Origin: a virus
DNA: 25,668 nt
IMG/VR virus record: IMGVR_UViG_3300035183_001472
Coordinates: 1-25,668 of that record
Direction: 5' to 3' (one strand)
Under the pieces are notes generated by a model that saw nothing but the letters and a program-made list of their open reading frames with translations, ran no database searches and was not told the origin of the DNA. Shown one piece after another: positions 1-18,265 of the stretch; position 1 is the stretch's first letter; each line of letters opens with the position of its first letter. A program made the translations under genes and the position numbers.

Positions 1-513
1 ATGAAGATTGTCTTTGTCAATCGGTATTTTCACCCCGACCATTCGGCTACAAGCCAGTTGTTAAGTGATCTGGCCTTTCATCTCGCCAAAGCCCAATCGG
101 AAATTTACGTCGTGACAAGCCGACAGGTGTACGATGACCCAGCTTCCCTGCTCCCCAAACGTGATTCAATTCAAGGGGTTGTTGTGATTCGTGTGTGGAC
201 GACTCGGTACGGCGTTTCCCAGCTCCGGCCGCGTGTGGTGTTCGTCGGCATCCGCAAAGACTTGGCCTCGGGGTTCTCATGGCCGGAACCGCTCAAAACT
301 GAGCCGCCGACCGTTGGCGAGCTGCTGCATGATCTGATGAAGGCAAACGGCTGGCGCGGCGCTGACCGCTGGCGCGAACAGGCCAACACCATCGCCCCGA
401 CACTGGGTGGCGTGATGGCGACGGTAGAGAACTGCTCACGAAAATATGGACAACGGTGGACAAATTGGTTATCGAGCATGAACGTTAGGCGTGCATACCG
501 GGCACGGACTTGA
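1..513 (+). pseudogene. Chimeric remnant: glycosyltransferase N-terminus joined to a C5-cytosine methyltransferase fragment
   Basis: The frame encodes 170 residues from unrelated families. Residues 1-69 (opening MKIVFVNRYF, then HSATSQLLSDLAFHLA, VVTSRQ, YDDP and RVWTTRYG) look like the N-terminal Rossmann half of a family 4 glycosyltransferase, of a kind found in bacterial polysaccharide clusters. From about residue 70 the protein switches to YGVSQLRPRVVFVGIRKDL. That is motif VIII (QxRxR) of a Dcm-type cytosine methyltransferase, followed by WPEP, PTVGELLHDLM and ANTIAPTLGG, which are usual for that family. After about residue 137 neither family is recognisable. Methyltransferase motifs I-VI, IX and X and the whole glycosyltransferase C-terminal half are missing, so neither activity is expected. 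The switch lies near bases 200-216. It could be a phage-host junction, an old deletion scar or an assembly join. The frame starts on base 1, so upstream context is unknown. Confidence 0.7.
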
Positions 514-3773: not shown

Positions 3774-5862
3774 TTTCGAGCGAGTCCGGCGCGAGAGTGT
3801 GCCCTTACTGCCGTCCATCTTGCCGCGGCTGTTCCCGCGTGGACGGGTCATCGGACGCGAGTTTCGTGTCGGCAATCTGGCTGGGGAGCCTGGCCAATCA
3901 TTGGCGATCAATCTGGAGACCGGTGTCTGGTCGGATTTCGCAACTGGGCAGAAAGGGCCGGATCTGACCAGCCTATTGGCGGCCATGCTGGACGTGTCGC
4001 AAGTCGACGCATGTTTGCTGGCCCAGACGATCATGGACGACCCCTCCTTTGCCGAGACGGTGTGCGCACAGCCGGTGACGGCGCCCTCAAAGCCGATAGA
4101 CGTTCCCATTTATACGCCGGAGACCTTTGCACTCCCTGAATGGGGCAGCCCATTCCTGCTGCATGAGTACCGATGGGGAGATGGATCCCTGGCGTTTGTT
4201 GTGGCGCGTTATGGGAATTCGCGAGCGTCCAAGACCTATCGCCCTTGGGTCTGGGACGGATATGCCTGGAGCAAAACCGGACTGCCCGAACGACGGCCGC
4301 TCTATCGCTTACCACAGTTGCTTGCCGCTCCGCAGACGAGGCCTGTGCTGGTGGTCGAGGGTGAGAAATGCGCCGATCTGGCGGCTGACGTGCTCGGCGA
4401 TCGTCTGGCCGTCGTGACCTGGTCGGGTGGAGCCAGCGCGACAGGGAAGACGGATTGGCAACCATTGGCCGGTCGTTCTGTCATCATCTGGCCGGATGCT
4501 GATGCCCCCGGGCGTCGAGCAGGCTCGGATATTGCCGAGCGGATCCAGGGGATTGTGGCCGACCTGTCGATCATTGAAACCGGGGAACTGCCCCCGAGAG
4601 CTGATATCGTTGATATCTGGAACGATCTTGCCGGCCGTCACGGTACGGCAGAGACCTTGATGTCCTGGATTGAGTCGCATCGACGGGTGGTGCCCACCGT
4701 TCCGATTCCCTCTCGGCCTGCACAGGACTGGACACAGGAGCTGCGCGTCACGCCGTCCGGGAGTCCGAAGCGGATCGTCTACAATGTCGACCTGATCGTG
4801 CAGCATGACGACTATTTCAAGGATTGGTGGATCGAGGCGTGGGATGATCATATCTGGATTGGCAGTCGGCAGGCGACCGATGCTGATCTCTATGCCGCCC
4901 GGGCGTATCTCTCGCAGCGTTGGCACATCGAAGTGCCCGAAGAGTTGATCAGGAGTGCGATTCTCTCACGACGCCCCCATCGGAATACCATTGTGGAGTG
5001 GCTTCGCTCGCTGAAGTGGGATGGGCGATCCCGATGGCTCGATCTGGCCGCACAGGTGTTTCGGGATCCCTCCGATTATCTGGTCTCCGTCCTTCGCATG
5101 TTGTTCTGCGGTCTTGCGGCGCGCGCCCTGACCCCTGGGGTCAAGTTCGACCACTGCATCATTATTCGCGGGCCACAGGGGATTGGGAAAACCCGGTTTT
5201 TTGAGCTCTTAGGTGGTGATCGTTACGTAGCGATCTATGCGTCCATGATGACGGATGCGAAGGACGTCTTGAGCGCCATGTCCTCCGGCTGGGTCGTCAA
5301 CATCGAAGAGCTCTTTGATTCACGGCGGAACATTCGTGAGATTAAGTCGATCATCACATCCACGACGGACACCTGGCGACGACCGTACGATCGGATTGCC
5401 CAGGTTCACCCGAAGCGATGCGTGTTGGTCGGCACGACAGATGCCGAGCTGGGATTCCTTGACGATCCGGCCGGCTATCGGCGATTCTTAATTATCAATT
5501 GCCACTGTCGCCTGCAGTTGGATTGGTTTTGTGCCGCCCGAGAGGCCTTGTTTGCGGAAGCCGTGCAGTGCGTCACGACTGATCCGAACTGGTGGCAACT
5601 GGATTCAGCATCACGACAGCTTGCCGAGCAAATCGCCTCCGATCTGGAACTTGAGGATCCCTGGATGCACACGTTTCGGGAGGCCTTAGTGCCTGGCGTG
5701 GCGTATTCCATGGATCAACTCTGTGCCATGCTCTCGATTGCTGTCTCTCAACAGCATTCCGGAGTGACACGCCGAGTGGCGCGCATTGTGCGCCATCTTG
5801 GCTGGATCAAACGTCGCGGGAAAGATGGCCGGTACTGGTATGAATACTGTGCAGATGGTTAG
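3763..5862 (+). CDS. Primase-helicase: Toprim domain plus VapE/VirE-type ATPase
   Basis: The 699-residue product combines two replication activities. The N-terminal 120 residues (for example TGVWSDFATGQKGPDLTSLL) resemble the region before Toprim in phage and plasmid primases. A Toprim domain follows, with VLVVEGEKCAD at 195-205 (catalytic Glu199) and WPDADAPGR at 243-251 (the DxD metal site, Asp245 and Asp247). The C-terminal half matches the virulence-associated E (VapE) superfamily: KWDGRSRW, Walker A GPQGIGKT at 470-477, Walker B WVVNIEEL at 510-517, then KSIITSTTDTWRRPY and GTTDAELGFLDDPAGYRRFL. Such proteins prime and unwind DNA at phage or island origins. ATG 3763 lies inside the end of the previous gene; an in-frame ATG at 3706 would overlap it much further. 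It is the last gene of the early operon, and its stop interlocks with that of the converging tail-fibre gene. Confidence 0.88.
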   Translation: MSADFERVRRESVPLLPSILPRLFPRGRVIGREFRVGNLAGEPGQSLAINLETGVWSDFATGQKGPDLTSLLAAMLDVSQVDACLLAQTIMDDPSFAETVCAQPVTAPSKPIDVPIYTPETFALPEWGSPFLLHEYRWGDGSLAFVVARYGNSRASKTYRPWVWDGYAWSKTGLPERRPLYRLPQLLAAPQTRPVLVVEGEKCADLAADVLGDRLAVVTWSGGASATGKTDWQPLAGRSVIIWPDADAPGRRAGSDIAERIQGIVADLSIIETGELPPRADIVDIWNDLAGRHGTAETLMSWIESHRRVVPTVPIPSRPAQDWTQELRVTPSGSPKRIVYNVDLIVQHDDYFKDWWIEAWDDHIWIGSRQATDADLYAARAYLSQRWHIEVPEELIRSAILSRRPHRNTIVEWLRSLKWDGRSRWLDLAAQVFRDPSDYLVSVLRMLFCGLAARALTPGVKFDHCIIIRGPQGIGKTRFFELLGGDRYVAIYASMMTDAKDVLSAMSSGWVVNIEELFDSRRNIREIKSIITSTTDTWRRPYDRIAQVHPKRCVLVGTTDAELGFLDDPAGYRRFLIINCHCRLQLDWFCAAREALFAEAVQCVTTDPNWWQLDSASRQLAEQIASDLELEDPWMHTFREALVPGVAYSMDQLCAMLSIAVSQQHSGVTRRVARIVRHLGWIKRRGKDGRYWYEYCADG

Positions 5863-7127
5863 GTCTTGATGATGTATTGCACGACTTGCCATGGTGGCAT
5901 CGTGTTATGCGCCAATCCACCACCTGTCGCTTCCATGCCGATCGTGTAATATTGCGCCCCATCTCCGCTGACCGCGCCTGTCCCTATGTCGTGGGATTTG
6001 ACCGTAAACGTCGTGACCGGCGTTCCGTTACGCAGAAAGCGATGCGTATGGGACGGCATCTCACTGACTTGGAGGAGATGCACCTCAGCCCCGCCCGTTC
6101 CCCCCATCGTGTCGGCATTGCTGCCCCCCACGGATGCGGAGGTCACACGATTGGCGGTGCCGTCAATCCCTAACGGGAATCGCCCTCGCAAGTCCGGCAC
6201 ATTGAACGTACTGGATCCGTCTCCGGGGCCATAGGCGACGCCAATGACGGCAAAGAGTCTGGCGTAGGTGACGCGAGAGACCTCTTGCCCGTCGCAGAGC
6301 AACCATCCAGCCGGCACAGTGTTGTGATGTCCGTACGGGAGGATGCTTCCTGTGGGCACAAAGACTTGCTCCTGGGTCCAGACGGGGGACGCCTCATTGC
6401 CGGTGTTGCGGTATCCGATGGGGTACCCATTCTCGATGCCTAACTTCCAGTCTCCGCTCGTATGGATCATGCGGTAACCTGGTGCGGCTGACTTGACGGT
6501 TGGGAGCCCGATCATGACCGGATGCACTCCGTCACTATATCCCCCAGGCCAGCTCGACCCCGATGCAGAGAGCAATGCGGGCGCGATCATCGAGACCGTG
6601 GTCGGTACCACGCCATCGGCGTCGACCGAGAGCGTGAGCACCGTGTTGATTGCATTGTAGGTGCTGTTGATGATGGTGGCATACACCGACGTGGTGAGTG
6701 CTGTTAATTTGACTCGCCGTCCGACATGGTAGAGTTCGCGAACGTCGCCGGCGATGGCTACTGTCGTGGCATTGACATAAGACACCGTGTGTGGCGTGAG
6801 CCATTCCTGTGTCAGCGTTGACGACACATCCTCCAGTAAAATCTCGTCGATGGTATAGATCGGTGATGTGGGGGGATCTGTATCGTGTGGCGGCGCATAG
6901 ACAAACTTATAGGCTCTGGTCGCGTCAATGTAAATCGGCGTCGGAGGCATCCCGATCGCATTCAGGATGATCGGGTTCGTGTGGAAGGCCGTTCCGTTCG
7001 CCGACGTTGCGACGGAGACTTTGGTTGACGTGCCGGCCTGGTACGTAAAGAGTTTGGCTCCTACATAGGGTTGCCCATTAGGCGTTAACCACTGCGTATT
7101 GCCAACTGGTGATAATCGCCATCCCAT
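5859..7127 (-). CDS. Tail fibre with podovirus-type N-terminus and phage tail collar domain
   Basis: The 422-residue product begins with a pattern common to head-binding N-termini of short-tailed phage fibres: NTQWLTPNGQPYVGAKLFTY, AGTSTKVSVATSANG, NPIILNAIGMP and YKFVYAPP. The C-terminal third is a phage tail collar domain (Pfam PF07484 type): GSILPYGHHNTVPAGWLLCD, FAVIGVAYGPGDGSSTFNVP, DLRGRFPLGID, EMPSHTHRF, ending MPPWQVVQYIIKT. It should attach to the tail machine and contact the host surface. The start at 7127 is chosen because GGAG lies 8 bases upstream and the preceding gene ends at 7129. The frame runs open to 7181 without an obvious ribosome site. It is the last gene of the late operon and overlaps the stop of the converging primase-helicase gene. 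Confidence 0.87.
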   Translation of the reverse strand: MGWRLSPVGNTQWLTPNGQPYVGAKLFTYQAGTSTKVSVATSANGTAFHTNPIILNAIGMPPTPIYIDATRAYKFVYAPPHDTDPPTSPIYTIDEILLEDVSSTLTQEWLTPHTVSYVNATTVAIAGDVRELYHVGRRVKLTALTTSVYATIINSTYNAINTVLTLSVDADGVVPTTVSMIAPALLSASGSSWPGGYSDGVHPVMIGLPTVKSAAPGYRMIHTSGDWKLGIENGYPIGYRNTGNEASPVWTQEQVFVPTGSILPYGHHNTVPAGWLLCDGQEVSRVTYARLFAVIGVAYGPGDGSSTFNVPDLRGRFPLGIDGTANRVTSASVGGSNADTMGGTGGAEVHLLQVSEMPSHTHRFLRNGTPVTTFTVKSHDIGTGAVSGDGAQYYTIGMEATGGGLAHNTMPPWQVVQYIIKT

Positions 7128-7128
7128 G

Positions 7129-8706
7129 CTATGGATTCTCCGTTCCGGCAATGACCGCCGCAGGAATGAGGCGACGGACATACATGTTTTGCGACGGCGT
7201 CAGCCGGGCGGCCAGCATGCCAGGTTCTGCCATTGCGCGCAGATAATACTGTGCCGCCAATGCGTTCTTGATGACAGGAATAGCCGTGCGAATCGCTGCA
7301 AAGGGACCGCCCATCCCCTCCACAATCTGTTGCCCCGCAATACGTTCTGCCGTGCCCGACGAACCGATATAGGGCACCGTCTGTCGGATCACTTGCGCGG
7401 CGGCCATCATATCGGCCCATGAAGGGTCAGAAATCGCTCTTCCCGTATGCGGTTTGCGAATCCGCGCTTCTTGCGATAAGAGGCGAGCCGCACTCACCCG
7501 ACCGGTGAGCGGGTCGGTGACCGCCTCCAGCTCGTGAATGCGCGCATACAACTGTCGAGCTTCAGCGAGCTTGTCCATCGCTTCTTTCGGGACATGCCGG
7601 GCAATCCAGTCCTCCATGATGCCGGAGAGCTCTGTGAGCTGTTGAGCCGTCGCGACGTCCCCGCGTCGTCGAGCCGCGGTGGCCAAATCACGAATGCCTT
7701 GCCAATCCTGTAAGGCCATGTCTCCGGTGTAGGTGGGCAACGCTTCTTGCACGCGCTTAGCGACCGCCGCCGCATCGGGCGATCCGATAGCGCGCTTCCC
7801 CTGCGCTGCAATGAACGTGTCGAGTGCGCGCGAGATGGTCTTATCCGGCTTCATCATCGGTATCTGCGCAATCACCTGATAAGCCTCGCGTGCTTTTGCG
7901 GCCCGCTCCGCGAGCACATTCTCAGTCGGCGCGGGTGCCGATGATCCGATCGCTTCTGCCGCCTTGCGGTCCAGCACTCGCTTTTGCTGTTCGCGCAAAT
8001 CCCAGATGGCCTTGGCGCTGCCCGGGCGCGCAGCGAGCCCTTCCTCGATTTGCTGTAAGGTGACATCGCCCGTGCGTTGCGCGGGCGTCAGGGGAATTCC
8101 CAACCGCTCGGCATTCGCCACGAGCTTGCGTCGCTCCGGAGGGATCGGGACTCCGACACGGGTTAGGTAATTCGCCGCTGCGCCGGATAGCCCACCGACA
8201 GCTGCGCCGCCCAATATCTGGAGCAGCTTGTTGGTGGTATAGGAATCCGTTGACAGATCCGGCAGGTCGCGAATCGGCTGAGTGCCTTCGTACGTCGCGC
8301 CGATTGCTGCCCCACGCCGAATCGATCCCGGTTGCCCGACGATGGCGCGCACGATCGGATGAAGGGCCATCCGTGGCGCCGCGAGTTGCGGGACGACGAA
8401 TTGCGCAGCGGTGCCGACGACGGAACCTAGTTGCTCGGCTGCCGTGCGTGGCGATTCGATCTCCGCCAACCTGCGCTGCACGTCGGCTCGCCACGTGTCA
8501 CGTCCACTGAGATAAGCCGCGCCCTGCTCGAGACCGAGGGCCGTTCGTGCCAGCGACGACAATGCCCCGCGACTAAAGTCACCGAGTAACGAATCAGCCA
8601 CGACGGCTTCTTCGGCAGCAGCTTGCGCGGCCTCCGGCGCCATCCCTTGCCGAATGGCTTCCTGCTCCATCCGAGCGACTTCTTCGTCGGTGTATCGCCT
8701 ACCCAT
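7129..8706 (-). CDS. Large internal virion protein, probable gp16-like ejection protein
   Basis: The 525-residue product starts MGRRYTDEEVARMEQEAIRQ. It contains Ala/Gly-rich stretches (SVVGTAAQFVVP, AAIGATYEGTQPIRDL, LLQILGGAAVGGLSGAAANY) that could be membrane-active. It then has ERLGIPLTPAQRTGD and QQIEEGLAARPGSAKAIWDL, a pattern I associate with large internal structural proteins of phages. The C-terminal half is helical and charged. In P22 the gene after gp7 and gp20 is gp16, a protein ejected with the DNA that helps it cross the cytoplasmic membrane, and this gene sits in that slot. Assignment rests on position and composition more than on residue-level similarity. It overlaps the upstream gene by 8 bases and ends 1 base before the tail-fibre start. 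Confidence 0.6.
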   Translation of the reverse strand: MGRRYTDEEVARMEQEAIRQGMAPEAAQAAAEEAVVADSLLGDFSRGALSSLARTALGLEQGAAYLSGRDTWRADVQRRLAEIESPRTAAEQLGSVVGTAAQFVVPQLAAPRMALHPIVRAIVGQPGSIRRGAAIGATYEGTQPIRDLPDLSTDSYTTNKLLQILGGAAVGGLSGAAANYLTRVGVPIPPERRKLVANAERLGIPLTPAQRTGDVTLQQIEEGLAARPGSAKAIWDLREQQKRVLDRKAAEAIGSSAPAPTENVLAERAAKAREAYQVIAQIPMMKPDKTISRALDTFIAAQGKRAIGSPDAAAVAKRVQEALPTYTGDMALQDWQGIRDLATAARRRGDVATAQQLTELSGIMEDWIARHVPKEAMDKLAEARQLYARIHELEAVTDPLTGRVSAARLLSQEARIRKPHTGRAISDPSWADMMAAAQVIRQTVPYIGSSGTAERIAGQQIVEGMGGPFAAIRTAIPVIKNALAAQYYLRAMAEPGMLAARLTPSQNMYVRRLIPAAVIAGTENP

Positions 8707-10174
8707 GCTCCTCCCATTCGTTCGGCTTCACGCGGATAAGGACTTTGCCGTTAATAACCTTCAAGTCGCCCTTCTCTTTCAAGAACAACCATCGATCGAT
8801 GGGGATCACCTTGGGGTTCGGCGAGACTTTGACTTCGCCACGCGGGGAGGTATCCCATCGGTACAATCGATTATGTTCCGTGTATTCGATCCAAGCGTCC
8901 GTTGCTCCGTCAAGCGATTTGTAGCGCTTCATCCATTTCTCGAGGAATCCCGGAAAACGCTCGAGGTGCTCCATGTTCGAACGCAGGATCGCCGCATTGA
9001 TCCGATTTTGATTGGGATCGCCAAAGATGTGCGGCACCTGGGCCGCCTGCATCTGGCGTTCGACAATGGTATTCATCAACTGAGATTGCCCCGGCGCAGA
9101 GAACATATTCGTGAGAATCTCATTCAGGTTCTTAAGCTTGGCGTAATCCGAGTCGATTGCCGTAAGCGTATATTCCCCTAATGGCAATGCCGCTCTGGCC
9201 GGATTGCCCAGTGCGCGCTTATTGACGAGCTCGAACAGTTGCGCCAGAGGTTGGCGGAATTGGTTGATCTTCCTCGCGGCTTCTCGCGCCTGCTGGATGT
9301 CCTTGAGGTCCAGCTCTTGTTTTTGTTTGCGCATTGCCGATTCCAGCTCAGCCTGCTCTTTTTCGTTCAAGCCGAGATCCGCCCGGCGGGGATGCCCCGC
9401 CGCTCCATGAAGGTTCTGCGGTAGGATCGGATTGGCTTGAGGGACGACCGTTGTTTGCTTGCCTGTCAGGAGATCATAGGCCTGTTTGGCTTGCTGAGCC
9501 TGCTCCTGTAGGCTAGCCAACTGGCTTTGTGCGTCCTGCTCGCTCATCAGCCGCTCGGTGCGCATTCGCTGAACATTCACGATGGCTTCCTGGAGTGCTC
9601 GCCACCGATCGAATGCGTCCCGTTGCTCTTGCTGCAACTTCTGCTCCTTCTGGAGGTCGAACTTACCTTGATCGATCTCCATCTGCTTCTTCTGGAGGTC
9701 GAACTTACCTTGATCGATCTCCATCTGCTTCCGCAGGTGTTCCGCGGCTAAGTTCGACATCTGTTCTCGCTTGATCTGGACACCGCCCGGACCGAATGCA
9801 AGTGAAGTTGCTGTGGTCGGATCGGCCTCCCCCGCGCCGCTCAGTTGTGCGAGTAACGCATTGGCGACTTCCAGGTCCGCCATGCGCTTCGCGCGCTCTT
9901 TTTCGCCTTCGAACCGCACGTTTCGTTCGGCGATCAGCGGAGCCATTAATCGATCTTCCAATTGTATGGCCGCGACTGGATTCTGTCGAAAGAGCTCGCG
10001 GAGGTAATTCGGTCGCTCGACGCCGGGAAATCCAGGATAATAGGGTTCATCAGCCATGAGAGCCGCAGCACGACGAAACGCCTCATCGTCCGCTCGCTCT
10101 CGTCCTCTCGCCCAGGCTCGCGCGAGCTCATTGTGTGCGAGTTGACCGAACTGGACGGCTTCCCACGGATTCAT
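8699..10174 (-). CDS. Coiled-coil internal virion protein, probable gp20-like ejection protein
   Basis: The 491-residue product is dominated by long charged helices. The central part (about 140-330) is very rich in Gln, Lys, Glu and Leu, with a 14-residue unit, MEIDQGKFDLQKKQ, occurring twice in direct succession. The next helices read RTERLMSEQDAQSQLASLQE and EKEQAELESAMRKQKQELDL. It lies between a gp7-like and a gp16-like gene, the position of P22 gp20, which is ejected with the genome. Low hydrophobicity and coiled-coil content fit a soluble injected or trans-envelope channel component. The start overlaps the gp7-like stop by 4 bases and the stop overlaps the next start by 8. The family was not recognised beyond this context. 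Confidence 0.58.
   Translation of the reverse strand: MNPWEAVQFGQLAHNELARAWARGRERADDEAFRRAAALMADEPYYPGFPGVERPNYLRELFRQNPVAAIQLEDRLMAPLIAERNVRFEGEKERAKRMADLEVANALLAQLSGAGEADPTTATSLAFGPGGVQIKREQMSNLAAEHLRKQMEIDQGKFDLQKKQMEIDQGKFDLQKEQKLQQEQRDAFDRWRALQEAIVNVQRMRTERLMSEQDAQSQLASLQEQAQQAKQAYDLLTGKQTTVVPQANPILPQNLHGAAGHPRRADLGLNEKEQAELESAMRKQKQELDLKDIQQAREAARKINQFRQPLAQLFELVNKRALGNPARAALPLGEYTLTAIDSDYAKLKNLNEILTNMFSAPGQSQLMNTIVERQMQAAQVPHIFGDPNQNRINAAILRSNMEHLERFPGFLEKWMKRYKSLDGATDAWIEYTEHNRLYRWDTSPRGEVKVSPNPKVIPIDRWLFLKEKGDLKVINGKVLIRVKPNEWEEHG
9648..9731 (-). repeat. Exact tandem duplication of 42 bp in the coiled-coil virion gene
   Basis: Bases 9648-9689 and 9690-9731 are identical. The unit is in frame and encodes a 14-residue helical segment (MEIDQGKFDLQKKQ in rotated form), which is exactly two heptads. 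The duplication therefore lengthens a coiled coil without changing its register. Perfect DNA identity indicates a recent event or gene conversion. Confidence 0.95.
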
Positions 10175-10827
10175 GATCGTTTTGCTCCACCGAATCGCTC
10201 AGCAATCATGTTTCCAATCATGCCGCCAATGCCGGCAATCGTATTCCCCCACACTCGATCCGACGTCCCAGGCGCGGCACGATAGAGCTGTAGCCCAATG
10301 TTTTCTGCAGATTGCTGGCCGGTCGCATTGAGATTGGCTTGCGCTCCAGACAAGATACTCAACGCTTGCGGCCCAAGTTGGGCGGCTGACCGTAACTGAT
10401 CAAGTCGCAAGAGATACCGATTGAATGCGTTGCCGTATTCCGTTGCCCCCATCTCTTGCCCGTAACGCGTCAACGCGCGCAAGGTGTCTCCACTCTTCAG
10501 CACCCCACTGGATGCGGCGGCACCTTCCAGACCTCGCAATCCTTCTCGAAAACGAAAGTCGTAGCCTGGGTCGCGATACACTAATGGATCTTGCGTAAGG
10601 ATTGCGCCGAAATCCGTCAGGCGGTCGCGTCCAAACTGTTGATAGGGTTGTAATTCCGCCGCCAATGCGTTGTAGCGCTTGACGGCCTCTTGAAACCGTG
10701 CGCGATCGAGCGCGACCGCCTCAAGCATGGCGGCCGTGTCACGCTTCGCCCCCTTGGATCCAAACATCCCCCCGAGTACCGATCCAGCAATAGAGCCAAT
10801 GCCGGCCAGCGCCATTCCAATCGGCAT
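10171..10827 (-). CDS. P22 gp7-like DNA ejection protein
   Basis: The 218-residue product starts with a Gly/Ala-rich, membrane-like N-terminus (MALAGIGSIAGSVLGGMFGS). It then shows the core that marks P22 gp7-type DNA transfer proteins: LQPYQQFGRDRLTDFGAIL, RDPGYDFRFREGLRGLEGAA, SSGVLKSGDTLRALTRYGQE, TEYGNAFNRYLLRLDQLRSA and QLGPQALSI. The C-terminus is again Gly/Ile-rich (GNTIAGIGGMIGNMIAERFG). Members are packaged in the virion and released with the genome at infection. GGGGGAGG lies 8 bases before the ATG. The gene starts 2 bases after the cupin gene and overlaps the next gene by 4 bases. The match is strong enough for the name without a database search, although no symbol is used outside P22. 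Confidence 0.85.
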   Translation of the reverse strand: MPIGMALAGIGSIAGSVLGGMFGSKGAKRDTAAMLEAVALDRARFQEAVKRYNALAAELQPYQQFGRDRLTDFGAILTQDPLVYRDPGYDFRFREGLRGLEGAAASSGVLKSGDTLRALTRYGQEMGATEYGNAFNRYLLRLDQLRSAAQLGPQALSILSGAQANLNATGQQSAENIGLQLYRAAPGTSDRVWGNTIAGIGGMIGNMIAERFGGAKRS

Positions 10828-10829
10828 CG

Positions 10830-11174
10830 TTATGACCTCCCCCAGGTGCGTAACGCCAGGTCGACCTGATGAATGCAGAAGAGCCGAGTGTGTGGCTCAA
10901 GAGTTAAAAATTTGTGCTCGACGCCTTTCGGAATATCAATGACCGACCCGGCTTGAAAGACGCCCTGATCATGTCCGTCTCGCCAGAGACGGACAGTCCC
11001 CGATCCGACAACGGTCACATGAGCATAGGGATGCACATGTTGCGGAATCAATGAATACATTGCCGGACAATAGATCTCGCGCACATAAATCCCCGCATTG
11101 TCCACAATGGTGATGCGCTCGACCGGACGTTCTTCGGGGGTAAATGGACGTTCAACCGTCGGTTCAGGTATCAT
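10830..11174 (-). CDS. Single-domain cupin protein in the virion gene cluster
   Basis: The 114-residue product is a compact cupin beta-barrel. Cupin motif 1 reads LIPQHVHPYAHVTVVGSGTV, with the His-x-His pair and a third His. Motif 2 reads AGSVIDIPKGVEHKF, with PxG and the metal-binding His. A metal site is therefore plausible, but whether it is enzymatic, sugar-binding or structural is not visible. The start at 11174 is chosen because AAGGAGG lies 5 bases before it; an ATG at 11177 is only 2 bases from that site, and frames up to 11264 overlap the previous gene. It sits between the gp10-like and gp7-like genes, where P22 has gp26 and gp14, so a role in virion assembly or host-surface contact is possible. 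Confidence 0.8.
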   Translation of the reverse strand: MIPEPTVERPFTPEERPVERITIVDNAGIYVREIYCPAMYSLIPQHVHPYAHVTVVGSGTVRLWRDGHDQGVFQAGSVIDIPKGVEHKFLTLEPHTRLFCIHQVDLALRTWGRS

Positions 11175-11184
11175 CATCCCCTCC

Positions 11185-11436
11185 TTATGGGACAGGCGCC
11201 CCTGTGGCATCAACCCACTGCGACGCGGTTTTCGCCCAAATCGGTTTCCCCAAGGTGGTATCAAAATACTGATACCCGATAAACGGCGGAGGAGCCGGAC
11301 GCTGTGACGACGGTCCTGATCCGGACATCACCGACACCAGGTGCGATAAGTCAGCAAACCATTGGAGCCAAGCTGCCGGATATCCCTGCTCAGCCTGCAG
11401 TGACTGTCGCAATGGTGGAGGGGCTAATACTCGCAT
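11185..11436 (-). CDS. Small virion-associated protein, 83 aa
   Basis: The 83-residue product ends with FIGYQYFDTTLGKPIWAKT, then SQWVDATGAPVP. This FDTTLGKPIW...WVDATG pattern recurs at the ends of many short phage tail or fibre-associated proteins. The N-terminal half (residues 9-50) looks helical, with QAEQGYPAAWLQWFADLSHL. The start at 11436 shares one base with the gp10-like stop (TAATG), indicating translational coupling, so a longer frame up to 11535 is not needed. It occupies the position of P22 gp26, the tail needle, but is far shorter and lacks a long coiled coil, so I do not call it a needle. Confidence 0.65.
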   Translation of the reverse strand: MRVLAPPPLRQSLQAEQGYPAAWLQWFADLSHLVSVMSGSGPSSQRPAPPPFIGYQYFDTTLGKPIWAKTASQWVDATGAPVP

Positions 11437-12845
11437 TAGTACTGCACCATCACATAGGCCCCACAGACCCTGCGTGGGACCGGATCCGTAATCCTGAGCC
11501 GAACGGCAAGATCTCGTGCACTCCCACAACGCCATCGGGTCGCCCGACGCCGATATTGTCCAATCTGACCGAGTGGAACGAAGGCTTCATGCCCCCATGT
11601 GCGCCCGCCGTCTTTCGATAACTGAATCATTGCCACCGGATCCCCGGTTTCGCCTATGCCAGTCTCGACATCAACCTGAACGGACGATAAGGTGACCATC
11701 TTGCCGCCGGATAAGAGGTGATGACTCGTCACCTCGAAGATTAATGGATCGTCCCCCTCATGCTGCCGTGTCCCATCGACTTCCCAGATTATCCCGTCAA
11801 ATGCATCACAGAACAAGAGCCGCCCCTGCGATGCCAATGCCAACCATCCGCGAAAGAATGGACGACGGTCGCTGATCCGCCGCGACCACAGCATCATGCT
11901 GACATCTAACACCCACGTCCCACCATGAGGAAATGTCACCTGCCAGAACGGATGGCCGTTGATTGTATAACTGGTTGCCACCGCGTCATGATGGATTGAT
12001 GTTTGTGCCAACCATGTCTCGATTTGCGGTGCACGCACTAACTCGACTCGATAGGGGACGACTTCGGCAATCATGTCGCTTCCGACCGAACGCGCCAAGA
12101 ACAAGAGCCGTCCGTTCACGATGGCCCACCCACGCTCGGCCGCTAAGCCGATATCGACGACCGCACTCGTCACCGGACGATATCCTAACGCGCCCGGAAG
12201 ATCTGAGGCCGAGGTTGGCCCCCACCATTCGACCGATCGTTGCCCAAACACCACCAATTGGTTACCAATGGACGCCACCGACATGACACCATCGTGCGCG
12301 GCCTCGGCTGTGAAAAAATCCAGCGCATTCCAGGTCAGCCCGTTATAGACATTGCTGGCATAGACCCGATCGTCGCGGTAGACCCAGAACCGCCCCATCG
12401 CGAACAGGCCGCCACGAGCCCTTATCGGATAATTCGGATCAGTTACTGGCGCGATCGTCTGCGTGCTGCGCGTATAGACGTAGGCTTTGATGCCGTCATT
12501 GACAAAGAGCTGGTCGCCCCCATCAGCAATCCATGCCGCCCCTGACGAGGTTGGGAATGCCCCTAAGGTAATGATCGACAGGCTCGGATTCAATCGAAAC
12601 AGGGAATCCCCTGCGATCAGATACACGTCCAACTCTCCCTCTCGCACTAACGCCGCACGTGCCGGCTGCGCCCCGTATGCTGCAAACACTTTCATGCCCG
12701 GCATACCGATCAGCGCAAAACTTTGCCGCCCCGTCGCTAACGGCTCAACGTAGGCATTGACCCGGTCCACTGTGCTTAAAAACGGCACAGCAGCTTGTTC
12801 CCCAACGCCAAACAGAGGGATCGCTAGACGTTCGATGGCCGCCAC
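11436..12845 (-). CDS. P22 gp10-like packaged-DNA stabilisation / tail hub protein
   Basis: The 469-residue product resembles the P22 gp10 family, which plugs the portal after packaging and forms the tail hub; P22 gp10 is about the same length. Visible features are IPLFGVGE and VNAYVEPLATGR at the N-terminus, GMPGMKVFAAYG, then beta-rich repeats with VYLIAGDSLFRL, AWIADGGDQLFVNDGIKAYV, VGSDMIAEVVPYRVE and QLSKDGGRTWGHEAF. Neighbours agree: a gp4-like gene upstream and gp7-like ejection genes downstream. The only conventional start is GTG at 12845, but the AAGGAG ribosome site touches that codon. An ATC codon three codons later (12836) has an 8-base spacing, so the true start is uncertain. The gene overlaps the gp4-like gene by 22 bases. 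Confidence 0.82.
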   Translation of the reverse strand: MAAIERLAIPLFGVGEQAAVPFLSTVDRVNAYVEPLATGRQSFALIGMPGMKVFAAYGAQPARAALVREGELDVYLIAGDSLFRLNPSLSIITLGAFPTSSGAAWIADGGDQLFVNDGIKAYVYTRSTQTIAPVTDPNYPIRARGGLFAMGRFWVYRDDRVYASNVYNGLTWNALDFFTAEAAHDGVMSVASIGNQLVVFGQRSVEWWGPTSASDLPGALGYRPVTSAVVDIGLAAERGWAIVNGRLLFLARSVGSDMIAEVVPYRVELVRAPQIETWLAQTSIHHDAVATSYTINGHPFWQVTFPHGGTWVLDVSMMLWSRRISDRRPFFRGWLALASQGRLLFCDAFDGIIWEVDGTRQHEGDDPLIFEVTSHHLLSGGKMVTLSSVQVDVETGIGETGDPVAMIQLSKDGGRTWGHEAFVPLGQIGQYRRRATRWRCGSARDLAVRLRITDPVPRRVCGAYVMVQY

Positions 12846-13519
12846 TCCTTGATCAGTAAGGCCTGGTCAAATTGTGCAATCGGCATGGGAACGATTTGCC
12901 GACTTTTGATGGCCGCTTCGGTCTCAGTCAGTAACATCTGCAATTCCGCCGTCCACGGGACACCATACTCCGGCGCTAACCGCTGTGCGACTCGATATTG
13001 CAACCATGCTTGGTACCCTGGCGGAAGATCAACGAGATCATCCAGTGTGGTATAAGGAGACAATGGCCGCAAGACCGTCAAGACCAGCGTCTGATCCTGG
13101 CTGGTCGCAGGAGGAACCAGCGTGACGGTTCCGTTTGGATATGTCGGCTCATAGTACAGCCGCGTCATGGTTCCGCCAAGGGTTTTGTGCGAAATCCGAT
13201 CATAGTCAATCCGCTCAATGAGTTGGAACACACGATCTGTTCCGTCCGTCTGACGGACATATCCGCTCACAATCGAGACCGGACGAGTTGTGACAATCAT
13301 TCCCGTTGGCCCGACAGTCCAACTCGATTGACCGGGAACCAGTGGGATCGTCACACTTCCGTGAGCCGGCGGTATGAGCGGATCAAGATTGGCAAGTTCA
13401 ATGAAGGCATTGAGTGCAAAGAGCGCATCTGACGCGTCATCCGCCGACATGGCTTCCCCTGTGCCCAAGACTTGGATCGTCTTCAGGCTTCGTGTCAGCA
13501 AGTCGCGAACCGTCGTCAT
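12824..13519 (-). CDS. P22 gp4-like head-to-tail connector protein
   Basis: The 231-residue product matches the P22 gp4-type tail accessory factor that binds the portal and extends it toward gp10. Signals are an N-terminal helix pair (VRDLLTRSLKTIQVLGTGEA, DDASDALFALNAFIE), then VTIPLVPGQSSWTVGP, RLYYEPTYPNGTVTLVPPAT, LVLTVLRPLSPYTTLDDLVD, LPPGYQAWLQYRVAQRLAPE and a C-terminal helix (LLTETEAAIKSRQ). P22 gp4 is shorter (about 166 residues) but many relatives are near 230. GGAG lies 6 bases upstream of the ATG. The start overlaps the 64-aa gene by 4 bases and the end overlaps the gp10-like gene by 22 bases, fitting the conserved 5-4-10 order. Confidence 0.82.
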   Translation of the reverse strand: MTTVRDLLTRSLKTIQVLGTGEAMSADDASDALFALNAFIELANLDPLIPPAHGSVTIPLVPGQSSWTVGPTGMIVTTRPVSIVSGYVRQTDGTDRVFQLIERIDYDRISHKTLGGTMTRLYYEPTYPNGTVTLVPPATSQDQTLVLTVLRPLSPYTTLDDLVDLPPGYQAWLQYRVAQRLAPEYGVPWTAELQMLLTETEAAIKSRQIVPMPIAQFDQALLIKEWRPSNV

Positions 13520-13710
13520 TCATCACTCCAGGATGAGGCGCGAGCGACCCGGCGCATGAATTCTTTTGCCGGGATCCACCCGCGCTCTCGATAGCGATGC
13601 TCTTCCTCGGCGGAATACACGGCAATCGCTTGCCACGACTCTGGCTCATCAGGGCGACCGCGCATGAGTTCCGCACGAGGACGAGCAGAGTTGTACTGAT
13701 GCTTTATCAT
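13516..13710 (-). CDS. Hypothetical 64-aa protein between coat and connector genes
   Basis: This short basic protein contains AELMRGRPDEPESWQAIAVY and RERGWIPAKEFMRRVARASS. I do not recognise it. Support comes from tight packing: its start overlaps the coat stop by 4 bases (ATGA) and its stop overlaps the gp4-like start by 4 bases, with no gap for an alternative gene. The ribosome site is weak, so translation probably depends on re-initiation after the coat gene. The AEEEHRYRERGW stretch suggests a helical, possibly nucleic-acid- or partner-binding protein, but no function is claimed. Confidence 0.65.
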   Translation of the reverse strand: MIKHQYNSARPRAELMRGRPDEPESWQAIAVYSAEEEHRYRERGWIPAKEFMRRVARASSWSDE

Positions 13711-14897
13711 CCAGCAATTCGAACAGCTAACTGAGGCCGAATGGCTTTCATTCCGTAAAAGACGTCTACCCTCGTCGGGATGGTGTCATCCATGACGGAA
13801 TAATCGCGGATGATCCGCATCGAGATGCCATCCATGACTTCGCGCGCCCCCCAGTCAATGCCTTTCGGCATATAGAGGTCAGCAAAGGCAATGGCAAATG
13901 CATCCCGATGGTACGCCACTCCCACCTCATAGCTCGCGTTCGCCGCACCAACGAATGTCAGCGCCGCCGCGGCCGCAGGGCTCCCCGTCACGTTTTTCTG
14001 CGGACCGGTCGTCACAATCGCCGGCGCAATCGGCAATGTAACCGACGTCCCCGTCGCTGTGACATCCTGCGTAATCACGAATTGCTGGAGGATCCCCGTG
14101 TCTACCTTTGTTTCCGGATGCACACGATTGACCCCTGCGCAGGTAAACACCTGCCCCTTTATAAAGGTGCTTCCATTGACAGTTCCATTAATAGTCAACG
14201 TCGCACCAGTTTGACCGGCCGTGCTGACCGTCAATCCGGCCACAGTGTTTCCGTTGCGGATTCGTGGAACCATGGTGTTCTGGTACCAATCGAATCCGGC
14301 TGATCGTCCAATCAGCCCTTCCCGGTACTGTTTGCTGATTTCTTGGCTGTCCTGGAAGAGCCCTTTGAGGGCGTCAACCATGACGGCCATTGTCATCGGA
14401 GACACTTGTACACAACGAGGTGCTTGTGGAGCCAGCGCATTAGCCAGAATGGCCCCAGCGTCCGTAAACGTGAGCAACGTATTCGGGCGCGTCCCTGGCG
14501 TCCCGTTCTGCTGAAACACCTCCGTCACGAGTTGAAAGACCTCCGACTCGATGTTGGCCGCCAGAACCGACATGGCGGGTTCGATCACCCGCTCCGAAAA
14601 ATCATCGAGCTTCAACGTCAACTCTGCCGTGTTGAGCGACATCGCGACGTGTTTCTGTGTGCCGACCACCAGGTCGACCGATTGCTCGATGGTGTCTTGC
14701 ACGGTAATCGTCTGCCCCGTGCCAACTGTATATTGGTTCGGCAAGCGCAGTTTTACCGTGTCGCCAATTTTGGCCCCAGTTTTTCCAAATTGGTCGTCGT
14801 ATTGGCGATTAATGGTACCAGTAAAGGTCAGTTTCTGATGCAGGATCATCAACGCCTTCCGCGTGACCTGCACCGGAGTTAACAACGTATTTGCCAT
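13707..14897 (-). CDS. Major capsid protein, P22 coat (gp5) family
   Basis: The 396-residue product shows the P22-type coat protein layout: MANTLLTPVQVTRKALMILH at the N-terminus, TGTINRQYDDQFGKTGAKIG, DTVKLRLPNQYTVGTGQTI, QKHVAMSLNTAELTLKLDDF, RVIEPAMSVLAANIESEVFQ, RCVQVSPMTMAVMVDALKGL and RSAGFDWYQNTMVPRIRNG. The C-terminal part (YEVGVAYHRDAFAIAFADLY, GISMRIIRDYSVMDDTIPTR) also agrees. It is close in length to P22 gp5 (430). It should form the icosahedral shell with scaffold help. GAGGAAGG lies 4 bases before the ATG. It is the one late gene preceded by a real gap (98 bases), which carries a hairpin and may give it separate control of mRNA level. Confidence 0.92.
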   Translation of the reverse strand: MANTLLTPVQVTRKALMILHQKLTFTGTINRQYDDQFGKTGAKIGDTVKLRLPNQYTVGTGQTITVQDTIEQSVDLVVGTQKHVAMSLNTAELTLKLDDFSERVIEPAMSVLAANIESEVFQLVTEVFQQNGTPGTRPNTLLTFTDAGAILANALAPQAPRCVQVSPMTMAVMVDALKGLFQDSQEISKQYREGLIGRSAGFDWYQNTMVPRIRNGNTVAGLTVSTAGQTGATLTINGTVNGSTFIKGQVFTCAGVNRVHPETKVDTGILQQFVITQDVTATGTSVTLPIAPAIVTTGPQKNVTGSPAAAAALTFVGAANASYEVGVAYHRDAFAIAFADLYMPKGIDWGAREVMDGISMRIIRDYSVMDDTIPTRVDVFYGMKAIRPQLAVRIAG

Positions 14898-14967
14898 GAG
14901 ACCTTCCTCGCTCCAGCATGATTCCGTTCCTCATCCGTCTCATGTCGGAGGACGGGCTCTCCGCACT

Positions 14968-14989
14968 GCGACAGATTGCGCGCTGTCGC
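14968..14989 (-). promoter_or_regulatory. Hairpin in the coat-gene leader
   Basis: A perfect 7-base inverted repeat (GCGACAG and CTGTCGC) surrounds an 8-base loop, between the scaffold stop and the coat start, in the only intergenic gap of more than about 20 bases in the late operon. The late transcript would carry the stem about 70 bases before the coat ATG. No U-tract follows, so it does not look like an intrinsic terminator. An mRNA-stabilising or processing element is the better reading. I saw no clear -35/-10 promoter in the gap. Confidence 0.5.
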
Positions 14990-14995
14990 CCCGCG

Positions 14996-15790
14996 CTAAC
15001 GTCCATAAAATCGCGCATTCGGATACATGCTCCGAATACGCGCCGATTCTTTCCGCAACCAGGTCTCGACATCATCCTCGTCGGACGGTTGCGAATCCCT
15101 ACTAACGCCACCACGAGGAATCTGTACCTGTAGATTCTTCGTGGGCGACGACTTTTCAAGTTCTAACTTTGACGCCAGCTTGCCGATCTCGACCGACGCC
15201 CGCGCCGGCGGAAGCGCGCTGATCCGCGCCGCTTCGTCGCGATGCGTTGACAGATAGAGCATCACCAGGGGACCGTTGGCGTCCAGTTCAAATACTGCGT
15301 CCGCCACGGACTCCGAAATCGGCAACGTGGGATCAGTGATCATGTCCCAGAATCCCGCTCCATGCGCCTGCGCCACTTTTTCAGCCTCCTGTTGAAAGCG
15401 CGTCAGGCGTTCCTGGCGATACGCCGCACGTTGCTGTTGCAGCGCGGTGGCCGTTCGTTCCTCAATGGCCTTGGCCACCTGTTGATCGACCAGAGACTTA
15501 ATGTACTCGTCGTAAGAGTTCGCTTCTGTCGGCGACTTTGACGGGGTCGACAATTCCGCCAACTTGGCGCGCAGAATGGCATTTTCCTTTTCGATGGCGT
15601 TTCGCTGCGCGACCAGTTCGGAAATGCGTTCCTGAAATCGCCCTTTTGGCTGTTTCAGGTCCTTCTTTGCTGCCTGCAATGATGGCGGCAGGTCGTCCGA
15701 TTCCTTCTCGGCCTGCTGATCGACCGATGCGTCCTTGCGCACCTCATCTGTCTGCGACTCGATCGGTACATCATGATTCTGGTCGCCCAT
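14996..15790 (-). CDS. Scaffold protein, P22 gp8-like role
   Basis: The 264-residue product is acidic at its N-terminus (VPIESQTDEVRKDA, QQAEKESDDLPP). It then has a long coiled coil (GRFQERISELVAQRNAIEKE, NAILRAKLAEL), a second helical stretch with VDQQVAKAIEERTATALQQQ, and a basic C-terminus (RKESARIRSMYPNARFYGR). A charged helical protein directly upstream of the coat gene is the expected profile and position of a scaffolding protein, which in P22 is about 300 residues and binds coat through a basic C-terminal helix-loop-helix. AAAGGGGGAGGG precedes the ATG. It overlaps the lipoprotein gene by 20 bases. It is separated from the portal gene by about 6 kb, unlike in P22. Confidence 0.8.
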   Translation of the reverse strand: MGDQNHDVPIESQTDEVRKDASVDQQAEKESDDLPPSLQAAKKDLKQPKGRFQERISELVAQRNAIEKENAILRAKLAELSTPSKSPTEANSYDEYIKSLVDQQVAKAIEERTATALQQQRAAYRQERLTRFQQEAEKVAQAHGAGFWDMITDPTLPISESVADAVFELDANGPLVMLYLSTHRDEAARISALPPARASVEIGKLASKLELEKSSPTKNLQVQIPRGGVSRDSQPSDEDDVETWLRKESARIRSMYPNARFYGR

Positions 15791-16052
15791 GCCCTCCCCC
15801 TTTCTTTACCTGCCCTTCTAACGACCGTCCTAATAGACATAAATTCTCAGCCGTCATGCCAGACAGCTCCAATGCCATTTGCGCGCTGGCTTTTTCCTTC
15901 GACTCCGGCATGATGGCAATGATATTGGCAACCCGTTGCCGCGCCGAGATGTCGTCGGCCCACCAACAGACCGTACCATCCAGCATGGTGCCACGAAATA
16001 ACGGTCCACATCCGGATAGCAGCAACAAGAGCGGAATCAATAGTGCCATCAT
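15771..16052 (-). CDS. Small lipoprotein in the lysis region
   Basis: The 93-residue product has a textbook type II signal: MMALLIPLLLLLSGCGPLFR, with lipobox LSGC and the lipidated Cys at 15. Gly follows at position +2, so outer-membrane sorting is expected. The mature part is about 78 residues, helical in its centre (RQRVANIIAIMPESKEKASA, QMALELSGMTAENLCLLGRS) and basic at the end. It sits with holin-like, nuclease and peptidase genes, so an outer-membrane lysis role is possible. It is not proline-rich and is not nested in an Rz-like gene, so it is not a standard Rz1. Superinfection exclusion is an alternative. AAGGAGG precedes the start; ATGA overlap with the nuclease gene. Confidence 0.75.
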   Translation of the reverse strand: MMALLIPLLLLLSGCGPLFRGTMLDGTVCWWADDISARQRVANIIAIMPESKEKASAQMALELSGMTAENLCLLGRSLEGQVKKGGGHGRPES

Positions 16053-16396
16053 TTGGCATGTCCTCCTTTGCGCAGAACGTCTGCAAGCTTGACGCCGTCG
16101 CGCTCAATAACCCCTACATAACGACCGTATTTGTCACGCCGGCAGAGCGTCATGGTCATCGGCCCTTCAGCAACCCAGGCTTCAGTAGCCGCCCTGGCTT
16201 CTGCCCATCCCGGCTGTCGGCGCTCCGGCGTGTCGACATCAAGAACTCGCACATACTCCAGGCCGCCCACGCCAACATGATACAGCGCCAAAGTGTCTCC
16301 GTCGATCACACGCGCCACCTGTCCAGGAGGAACGGTCAACATGAGACACAGAACGACACGCCTGCCTACACCTGTCGATTTGTGAAGTAGGCCCAT
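16049..16396 (-). CDS. SNase-family (thermonuclease-like) nuclease, probably exported
   Basis: The product, 115 residues from this start, keeps the staphylococcal-nuclease active site: VIDGDTLAL at 30-38, YVRVLDVDTPERR at 48-60 and RRDKYGRYVGV at 86-96. By alignment by eye, Asp34, Arg50, Asp55, Thr56, Glu58 and Arg92 match the metal-binding and catalytic residues of the family, so it should be active and calcium-dependent. The N-terminus (KSTGVGRRVVLCLMLTVPPG) resembles a weak signal peptide. The start is uncertain: ATG 16396 is chosen for a GGTGG upstream; 16411 and 16342 are alternatives. It lies between the holin candidates and the lipoprotein and overlaps both. Export would place it in the periplasm or the lysate. 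Confidence 0.82.
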   Translation of the reverse strand: MGLLHKSTGVGRRVVLCLMLTVPPGQVARVIDGDTLALYHVGVGGLEYVRVLDVDTPERRQPGWAEARAATEAWVAEGPMTMTLCRRDKYGRYVGVIERDGVKLADVLRKGGHAK

Positions 16397-16533
16397 CCAA
16401 CCACCGCGCATGCCGCAACAACATGAATCAGGTTTTCAACTGATGGCGATGACAGAAACTGCGTGATTGCACTCTGCAACTGATCCAGTCCGTAGAGCCC
16501 GCCTAAGATGGTTGTCAGCTTGTCTGGATTCAT
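16366..16533 (-). CDS. Small membrane protein, holin candidate
   Basis: The 55-residue product has one membrane segment near its C-terminus (NLIHVVAACAVVGWAYFTNR, about 34-53) after a short amphipathic start (NPDKLTTILGGLYGLDQLQS). Size, topology and position beside an M15 endolysin and a second membrane protein make it a holin or antiholin candidate. ATG 16533 overlaps the upstream stop by 4 bases and lies just after an 8-base G run that may serve as a ribosome site. Because the upstream gene is in the +1 frame relative to this one, a -1 slip on the G run would fuse the two products. No family was recognised with certainty. Confidence 0.62.
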   Translation of the reverse strand: MNPDKLTTILGGLYGLDQLQSAITQFLSSPSVENLIHVVAACAVVGWAYFTNRQV

Positions 16534-16754
16534 GGTCCCCCCCCAGTATACAGCCAAATCAGTAAGGTTGTCATCCACCCACCGCCCAATAACCAGCGCA
16601 TCAGCCGCAGTTGCGCCTGTAGCCCGTCTACGATGCGCCAGTATTCTCGATTTCGTTCGTCTTGCACGCGGAGTTCCTCTATCAGCAAATTGAATTTGTA
16701 GTTGAGGTCATCAAGGCGATCGCGAATCAGGTCAAGGGTGTCTCGTGGCATCAT
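16530..16754 (-). CDS. XhlA-like membrane protein of the lysis cassette
   Basis: The 74-residue product has an N-terminal charged helix with heptad character (RDTLDLIRDRLDDLNYKFNL, LIEELRVQDERNREYW) followed by a single C-terminal membrane segment (LLGGGWMTTLLIWLYTGG). This is the layout of XhlA-type haemolysin/holin-associated proteins and of some small spanins. It begins directly after the upstream stop (TAA then ATG ATG) and overlaps the holin candidate by 4 bases. Its last codons are GGG GGG GGA CCA then the stop, so its end carries a possible slippery site. Function as holin partner, antiholin or spanin cannot be separated from sequence alone. Confidence 0.62.
   Translation of the reverse strand: MMPRDTLDLIRDRLDDLNYKFNLLIEELRVQDERNREYWRIVDGLQAQLRLMRWLLGGGWMTTLLIWLYTGGGP
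16537..16544 (-). promoter_or_regulatory. G8 tract with a possible -1 slippery heptamer
   Basis: On the coding strand, the end of the XhlA-like gene reads ACT GGG GGG GGA CCA TGA. It contains G GGG GGA, which fits the X XXY YYZ form of -1 frameshift sites. A -1 slip here would bypass the stop and continue into the holin-candidate frame, giving a fusion of about 129 residues. The same tract is prone to indels in replication. No strong downstream pseudoknot or upstream Shine-Dalgarno stimulator was identified, so the functional claim is open. Confidence 0.35.
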
Positions 16755-17822
16755 TTACCGTACCGCTCCCGTGATGGTTGCTCCGCGCACAGCTCCACGC
16801 GTATTCGGCTCAATCGGGATCGGCGGATTTAGATCCTGCTCCTCTGTGGCAAAAATCACGTCGTCCAAGTAAAACGTGGCTTCATATTCCGGGACGCGAA
16901 CTGCCATAATATCAAGAAAACACGGATCAGTATGGTTTGGACACTCCGGCGTGGTCCACTGAGAAAAATTCGGCGTGTTGAACGTTGTGAAGACTTTCAG
17001 CGTTCGCAAACCGCTGCGCGAGGCTTCGGGGACTTGCCAGCTCAGACCCGGCGTCCGTGCCCCCTGCCAATCCGACACCTTCGTCCACGGGTTGGCCGAT
17101 GATGTCCGCATCCACTGCTCGTACCGTCCGATCGGGCCGTCCATATCAAAATGGATACGAACTTGCATCCATGCACCTGGCGTGACAGGCATATCGACAA
17201 GGTTTTCGTATAACACCGTTGCGCCAATGCGATTGGCATCAATAGCCTGTTCGACATTCGATGCCCGAAAGTAAAACGCTCCATCGGTGGGAGCCGGTAT
17301 CCCGTTGCGATCGGAACTAATCCCTACCAGCCACACGGTGAGCGGCGGATCGTCGCCGCTGTATACAGCGCGACATGGGTACACGTTCGTTCGACACGGG
17401 TAAACAAATTTGCTTGTATGCACTTTCTTTCCTGGCAAAATCTTGATCCAAAATTGTATCCAGACTTCGCCAGGAATGAGGATGTTCGGCGTGGCGTCTA
17501 TTGCGAGCCAGGTATCCGTCTGACACCATCCGATACTGACACAACTGGTTGGATAAGTAGGCTGATCACGAAACGCCACCTCGAATACTAAGACTTTCGA
17601 GCCTCGCTCCATATCGTCAACTGTATAGAGGTACCCCGCCCCGCTTACAAAGTCCGAGTTCAATGATTTGATATCCGTCCATCCGGCACCTCTAAAAACG
17701 GATGTCACATTGCTGTTCCGATTCGCCACGTACTCGAATGAATCGCTGAACAACACGACAGCTTCACTTGGCAAAACGCTCATGAGCCAGCTTAGACCGA
17801 TGATGATTCCGTATCGGAGCAT
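16755..17822 (-). CDS. Exported protein, possible carbohydrate-binding or lyase-like beta-sandwich
   Basis: The 355-residue product starts with a clear signal peptide (MLRYGIIIGLSWLMSVLPSE, likely cut after SEA at 21). The mature part begins VVLFSDSFEY, and has WIQFWIKILPGKKVH, AFYFRASNVEQ, TPGAWMQVRIHFDMDGPIGR, YEQWMRT and EATFYLDDVIFATEEQDL. This series resembles concanavalin-like jelly-roll proteins, including heparin-lyase-like and LamG-like families, in which a partner sugar is bound on the beta-sheet. No catalytic set was confirmed. There are eight or more Cys, several closely spaced (CRTNVYPCR, CPNHTDPC), fitting disulfides after export. Start 17822 follows GGGAGG by 4 bases. It overlaps the peptidase gene by 31 bases. 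Likely roles are host-surface glycan binding or degradation. Confidence 0.65.
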   Translation of the reverse strand: MLRYGIIIGLSWLMSVLPSEAVVLFSDSFEYVANRNSNVTSVFRGAGWTDIKSLNSDFVSGAGYLYTVDDMERGSKVLVFEVAFRDQPTYPTSCVSIGWCQTDTWLAIDATPNILIPGEVWIQFWIKILPGKKVHTSKFVYPCRTNVYPCRAVYSGDDPPLTVWLVGISSDRNGIPAPTDGAFYFRASNVEQAIDANRIGATVLYENLVDMPVTPGAWMQVRIHFDMDGPIGRYEQWMRTSSANPWTKVSDWQGARTPGLSWQVPEASRSGLRTLKVFTTFNTPNFSQWTTPECPNHTDPCFLDIMAVRVPEYEATFYLDDVIFATEEQDLNPPIPIEPNTRGAVRGATITGAVR

Positions 17823-18265
17823 GATTCCTCCCGACATTGGATGTGGAGTATCCGTAATCCGCCTTCGCGCGTGATAACCTTCTCAACACATGGATGCTCT
17901 CTGATCGCTATCGCAATAGCCTCTCCCTCTTCTCCCGGCCAGGCACAATCAAACGCATGTCCCGTTAAGTGTCGCGAGAGGCTATACTGCTCGGATTCGT
18001 CAGCCGTCCGAATGACAGTCTCAATTGCCGCATCGAGGCCGTCATCTGTCGCGCCGGCCACAGCATCGACAATGCGCCGCACGAGCGGTGTCGCGCGATA
18101 GGTCTGTTGAATCCAGTCTCGACCATACCGGCGCGTATTCCGTGTCATCACCCGGATCTGCTCATCAAGTGAACGCCTGCCCGACGTGATCCGCAACTGC
18201 GGCCAGCGCGCTAACACCCATTCAGCCACCCGCTGCGTTGTCGGCGTTAATCCCCAGGTTACCAT
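17792..18265 (-). CDS. M15-family (VanY-like) peptidase, endolysin
   Basis: The 157-residue product has the metal-binding set of M15 LD- or DD-peptidases: SGRRSLDEQIRVMTRN near residues 28-43, SRHLTGHAFDCAWP with His99 and Asp106 (the SxHxxGxAxD motif), and RILHIQC with His141. Such enzymes cut peptidoglycan peptides and are frequent single-domain endolysins in phages of Gram-negative bacteria. There is no signal peptide, so it needs the neighbouring holin candidates to cross the membrane, which are three to four genes downstream. The start overlaps the upstream stop by 7 bases with a poor ribosome site, so translation is probably coupled. The C-terminal tail (REESCSDTESSSV) overlaps the next gene and is probably dispensable. 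Confidence 0.85.
   Translation of the reverse strand: MVTWGLTPTTQRVAEWVLARWPQLRITSGRRSLDEQIRVMTRNTRRYGRDWIQQTYRATPLVRRIVDAVAGATDDGLDAAIETVIRTADESEQYSLSRHLTGHAFDCAWPGEEGEAIAIAIREHPCVEKVITREGGLRILHIQCREESCSDTESSSV

Follow-up and report, generated by a model that had tools for sequence, protein, structure and literature searches.

The window (the whole stretch of DNA analysed here, a virus record of 25,668 bases) opens with ORF 1-513, which appears, with a probability of roughly 0.7, to be a chimeric pseudogene, produced by illegitimate joining within a zone of gene debris next to a phage, rather than a functional fusion. It is a single open frame on the plus strand, from the ATG at base 1 to the stop at base 513, and encodes 170 amino acids. 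By sequence similarity, it is comprised of the truncated 5′ end of a family-4 glycosyltransferase (GT) gene (bases 1-207, codons 1-69), an internal fragment of an NgoMIV-type cytosine-5 methyltransferase (MTase) gene (bases 208-411), and a remainder that shares bases 425-535 with the leader of the next gene. The change from GT to MTase (junction 1) lies at about bases 203-211, and the change from MTase to bases resembling the start of a restriction (R) gene (junction 2) lies at 405-424. The original prediction that one frame switches from a GT to an MTase, with both halves broken, was borne out, as the ORF keeps only 69 residues of a GT of about 400, and about 66-71 of an MTase of 318. Because the record starts at the ATG of this ORF and its other end coincides with the start codon of an ORF on the minus strand, it was probably trimmed at gene boundaries from a longer contig.

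Sources of the two gene fragments

Residues 1-69 align with GT4 enzymes, with 52% identity to a 419-residue GT of Shinella and a best identity of 66% in Nitrospiraceae genomes; among 175 genomes assigned to the Nitrospiraceae-like family (a family name taken from the record titles of the loci), 35 had a match, as did 12 plasmid records. In total, 92 matching genome loci from many phyla were found, of which 80 were kept, and phage records gave no match at E values up to 1. No Pfam family was matched by residues 1-72 alone, and the putative GT identity is based on pairwise similarity. A full-length GT4 enzyme has about 400 residues, and open frames of at least 350 residues were present in 80 of the 86 readable homologues, or 77 of the 83 distinct ones (the set without double-fetched or near-duplicate loci). 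The motif xFGR was present in all 12 homologues displayed, at the position where the window turns to RYGVS; at the join, a Nitrospiraceae GT (L209) reads ...ACTCGGTTTGGACG versus ...ACTCGGTACGGCG in the window. The MTase piece was absent from all 92 GT loci (90 distinct), and no fused homologue, which the original prediction had named as evidence against itself, was found among them.

With regard to the second fragment, residues 69-163 match the Pfam family DNA_methylase (PF00145) at 3.6e-8, with 33.7 bits against a curated cut-off of 22, and the match spans only positions 146-248 of the 324-position profile. Residues 147-217 of a 318-residue relative align with the piece, which lacks everything before about residue 147 as well as the C-terminal third; the MTase gene is also cut at its 3′ side, i.e., it is broken on both sides. 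The catalytic PC motif presumably falls in the missing part before about residue 147, and the N-terminal motifs for AdoMet binding and catalysis that mark a functional cytosine-5 MTase would likewise be absent. The retained YGVSQLRPRV would correspond to motif VIII (QxRxR).

The closest DNA was found on plasmids. Bases 203-412 are 86% identical to the M gene of an Azonexus plasmid (L014, 1494-1705), the identity is 82% for bases 199-412 with Acidovorax (L015) and 76% for bases 211-410 with a contig of the viral collection (G002); an NgoMIV-type R gene follows the M gene in all three, according to annotation in the first two and Pfam in the third. At the protein level, 22 plasmid records matched the piece, eight of them at 80-94% identity, versus four phage records with a best identity of 63%. 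The homology ends at ORF residue 137 or before in all four phage records and in the 20 plasmid records listed of the 22. In addition, neither the MTase nor the GT had a match at 1e-5 in 79 partial loci of relatives bearing the window's large terminase (TerL), a set that excludes the near-identical contig G001. The MTase piece is therefore best read as debris of a plasmid-type restriction-modification (RM) system, and the claim that this part is phage DNA runs against both the plasmid records and the 79 loci. A conserved phage MTase gene was also considered as a candidate and was not supported by the 79 loci.

Some information on the age of the truncation could be obtained from the codons. Over 66 codons, the piece differs from L014 at 25 bases, with 19 synonymous and three nonsynonymous changed codons, while a neutral expectation gave a mean of 17.1 nonsynonymous changes and a minimum of 10 in 2000 simulations of uniform random changes, which ignore mutation bias; some of the divergence belongs to the Azonexus branch. 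Since the nonsynonymous changes are far below the neutral simulations, the MTase gene is suggested to have stayed whole while most of the divergence accumulated and to have been cut short recently. The same codon conservation, together with the frame that stays open across the join, could be taken as a sign of a functional fusion protein of the phage or its host. Such a protein is hardly credible here: most of the GT is missing, the MTase is without its residues before about 147 (presumably including the PC motif) and its C-terminal third, none of the GT loci contains a fused form, and the conservation is explained by the history of the parent gene. The open frame, which the original prediction called notable, is unremarkable, as a join falls in frame in about one in three cases by chance.

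The two junctions

At junction 1, relatives of both parents have only about 5 bp in common (CTCGG), and these are 2 nt out of register. The junction is known from one record only. The 22-bp join sequence was contained in none of the viral contigs, a peptide scan including VWTTRYGV did not reveal the fusion elsewhere, and a DNA search of the 175 genomes matched eight of them, in the GT part only. The near-identical contig G001 reaches just window base 8603, and no second contig found covers the left 8.6 kb.

These observations, like the absence of the fusion from the GT loci, would be expected if unrelated molecules had been joined in vitro or in silico, as an assembly or library chimera that does not exist in nature. 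It also fits such a chimera that the early gene module of the window is inverted relative to two relatives, L129 (Erf and primase) and L165 (primase), in which early genes and TerL lie on one strand. A graph assembler needs k-mers of about 21 or more in common to connect two sequences, and with only about 5 bases common to the relatives of the two parents around the join, a repeat-driven mis-join is unlikely. Moreover, a chimeric molecule in the library would seldom be covered deeply enough to be assembled, and there are two breaks close together, the second of which may stay inside one RM operon. An artefact is thus considered rather unlikely, and it is kept in mind for two reasons, the lack of confirmation for the left 8.6 kb and the inversion of the early module versus both relatives.

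At junction 2, the MTase homology ends, whatever the nature of that break. Window bases 406-424 agree at 18 of 19 positions with the region where the R gene begins in Azonexus (L014, 2001-2019), and the MTase homology stops at position 1705 of the same locus. This 19-bp match scored E values of 0.002 and 0.004, and an unrelated 17/18 match in the same search scored 0.008; in Acidovorax, the corresponding similarity is an exact run of 12 only. Loss of about 296 bp between two short sequences that resemble each other would account for junction 2, although the match could also be due to chance. Another frame at this junction reads WRDGDGRELLTKIWTTVDKLVIEHER and then stops, and it matched no family. 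Of the readings originally offered, a deletion scar was supported.

The phage proper would begin somewhere between about base 425 and base 536. For bases 425-535, nothing convincing was detected in plasmids (E about 0.5), in phages by peptide, in PHROGs, or in the fetched loci, and an exact 30-mer from this part was absent from the viral contigs. No sigma-70-like promoter was found in bases 1-900, the minus strand of which carries two terminator-like sites versus 0.7 expected.

The phage, its relatives, and its far flank

The early module of the phage (536-5862, plus strand) encodes a protein of unknown family, a DUF6378 protein, SSB, an Erf-like annealase, a YqaJ/RecE-like exonuclease, a product with a weak RusA-like match, and a VapE-type primase/helicase. 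It converges, with a 4-bp overlap at 5859-5862, on the late module (5859-25668, minus strand), which carries a putative small terminase and then TerL, portal, capsid, connector, and tail genes. The small terminase, which falls in a PHROG named RNase E, was assigned from its position and a helix-turn-helix match. A short tandem repeat, PKPEKAPAA, was observed in the linker of the Erf-like protein (window about 1820-1895). The 906-residue protein encoded at 19005-21725 matches a right-handed beta-helix and a phage depolymerase C-terminal domain and is a likely tail spike.

Megablast of window bases 1-25000 against phage records gave no match, and single-protein scans, one with the primase and one with the protein encoded at 536-832, found no relative among viral contigs. 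Such scans detect close relatives only, because a TerL profile scan later brought primase relatives at 45%. TerL matches of any kind were present in four of the 175 Nitrospiraceae-like genomes. One prophage-like contig of Nitrospiraceae (G028:C60) has a TerL, portal, and capsid with 53%, 50%, and 55% identity to those of the window and the same late gene order; it differs in carrying a tyrosine integrase and in having no match to the GT/MTase ORF at 1e-4. The host is probably a member of Nitrospiraceae, as judged from the similarity of the GT and of proC (see below) and from this one related contig. A study of soil-nitrifier viruses serves as background (PMC11849493).

G001 (IMGVR_UViG_3300036768_001470) is 99.98% identical to the window over 8603-25668 and extends 1,765 bases past its right end (locus L009); it is a different contig, whose sample may or may not be that of the window, and the left flank may not be common to both. 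Some part of L009 780-1765 was matched in 137 of the 175 genomes, mostly proC among the matches listed, while flank bases 1-900 had no match in these genomes in a search run without a positive control. A fragment of proC occupies L009 914-1598; it aligns collinearly with Nitrospiraceae-like genomes (best 82%, G109) and lacks its start and the neighbours that are present in L118. It is followed at 1595-1661 by a scrap of about 65 bp from a TnpB zinc finger, 78-90% identical to nine plasmid records. Both proC Pfam domains were matched in the intact relative (L118, G109), and the proC and TnpB fragments themselves fell below the Pfam cut-offs. A right flank of many tiny patches, with TnpB replacing the proC N-terminus, was also considered and rejected, as the alignment shows one collinear proC piece with two substituted stretches, and then TnpB.

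Several features of this flank were observed in their own right. In the proC fragment, two stretches (L009 about 1018-1060 and 1130-1195) are replaced by DNA of similar length, and the reading frames change across them. The substituted stretches contain three copies of GGTCGTCGAAGGCCCGGG (at 1038, 1148, and 1175), a unit seen in no other contig among the loci compared. L009 1-260, beside the phage, is AT-richer, contains a direct repeat of CTCCGCGATTTATCGAGG at 9 and 83, and had no match in the 175 genomes. Folding of L009 1650-1766 was no better than that of shuffled sequences (z 0.18). Rfam had no match in the window or L009.

The original prediction had offered an attachment-type junction, in which site-specific integration into the GT gene would leave an attL-type border and the MTase would be a phage gene near attP. 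The position of the join at the end of a phage-like record and the tyrosine integrase of G028 speak for it. On the other side, integrase and serine-recombinase domains (PF00589, PF07508) had no match in the window record or G001, either of which may be incomplete, and no tRNA was found. No core repeat at 203-211 was shared between the left 560 bases of the window and the right 1790 bases of G001. The best repeat between them (21 bp at 90%) pairs bases 328-347 with the small-terminase start, several others are of 9-10 bp, and the one 10-mer that coincides with the proC/TnpB join falls within the MTase piece (303-312). As for the reciprocal junction proposed as a check, the GT, MTase, and R proteins were compared with the 1.8 kb of the right flank of G001, and none of their missing parts was matched there. 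With the MTase broken on both sides and unmatched in the loci of relatives, integration at this point is highly improbable, and the attachment site was discarded as a candidate for want of an integrase match, a tRNA, a core repeat, and a gene remainder on the far side.

Proposed origin and comparison with known systems

Illegitimate joining fits best because unrelated genes are truncated, shared sequence is nearly absent, and an internal deletion is probable. Briefly, a chromosomal-type GT gene, probably of Nitrospiraceae, would have been fused near its codon 69, with little or no homology, to DNA from within an NgoMIV-type RM system. Either earlier or later than the GT join, the 3′ third of the M gene would also have disappeared, probably through loss of the DNA lying between two short stretches of similar sequence. 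The phage would sit in, or have its ends joined to, a debris zone, since the far flank of the near-identical phage likewise consists of truncated genes. Host end joining or the Erf/exonuclease pair of the phage may have had a role in these events, whose order, like the host, we infer. Phage annealase systems are reported to recombine diverged DNA (PMC2327257).

The fragments might instead belong to the phage genome itself, if the region between the early and late modules collects host and plasmid scraps (GT, MTase/R, TnpB, and proC) captured by its own Erf and exonuclease. Scraps do occur on both outer sides of the phage when the window and G001 are combined, and the phage encodes the Erf-like annealase and RecE-like exonuclease required. 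However, the two flanks come from different records, L129 and L165 have no match in a search that covered the GT and MTase, and trimming at a gene start suggests that the flank continues beyond base 1, which makes a phage-borne origin improbable. If true, the patchwork would illustrate the way in which phages acquire short pieces of cellular genes, and the inter-module region would be a natural record of illegitimate joins rather than a host flank.

With chimeric debris beside the phage as the preferred reading, the first gene should not be annotated as a phage methyltransferase, and ORF 1-513 is not usable to infer either phage anti-restriction or a host attachment site. The scar looks ordinary in kind, an illegitimate joining of broken DNA rather than a phage insertion site.

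Three known systems can be compared with the ORF. The GT4 enzymes of Nitrospiraceae and Shinella resemble it in the first 69 residues, at up to 66% identity and with the same start-codon place, whereas the copy in the window ends at codon 69 of about 400. The NgoMIV-type RM systems of the Azonexus hydrophilus plasmid (MTase WP_059318885, R WP_191604241) and of Acidovorax pAOVO02 include the closest DNA (86% in Azonexus); M precedes R in Azonexus, and window bases 406-424 weakly resemble the start of that R gene. The window differs in that it keeps about 66-71 of 318 MTase residues, has no R gene match, and is not functional. Finally, truncated-gene debris and illegitimate-recombination scars occur at prophage edges. 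Although the left junction of the window is known from a single metagenomic record, it resembles such scars in that unrelated truncated genes are joined with little or no homology.
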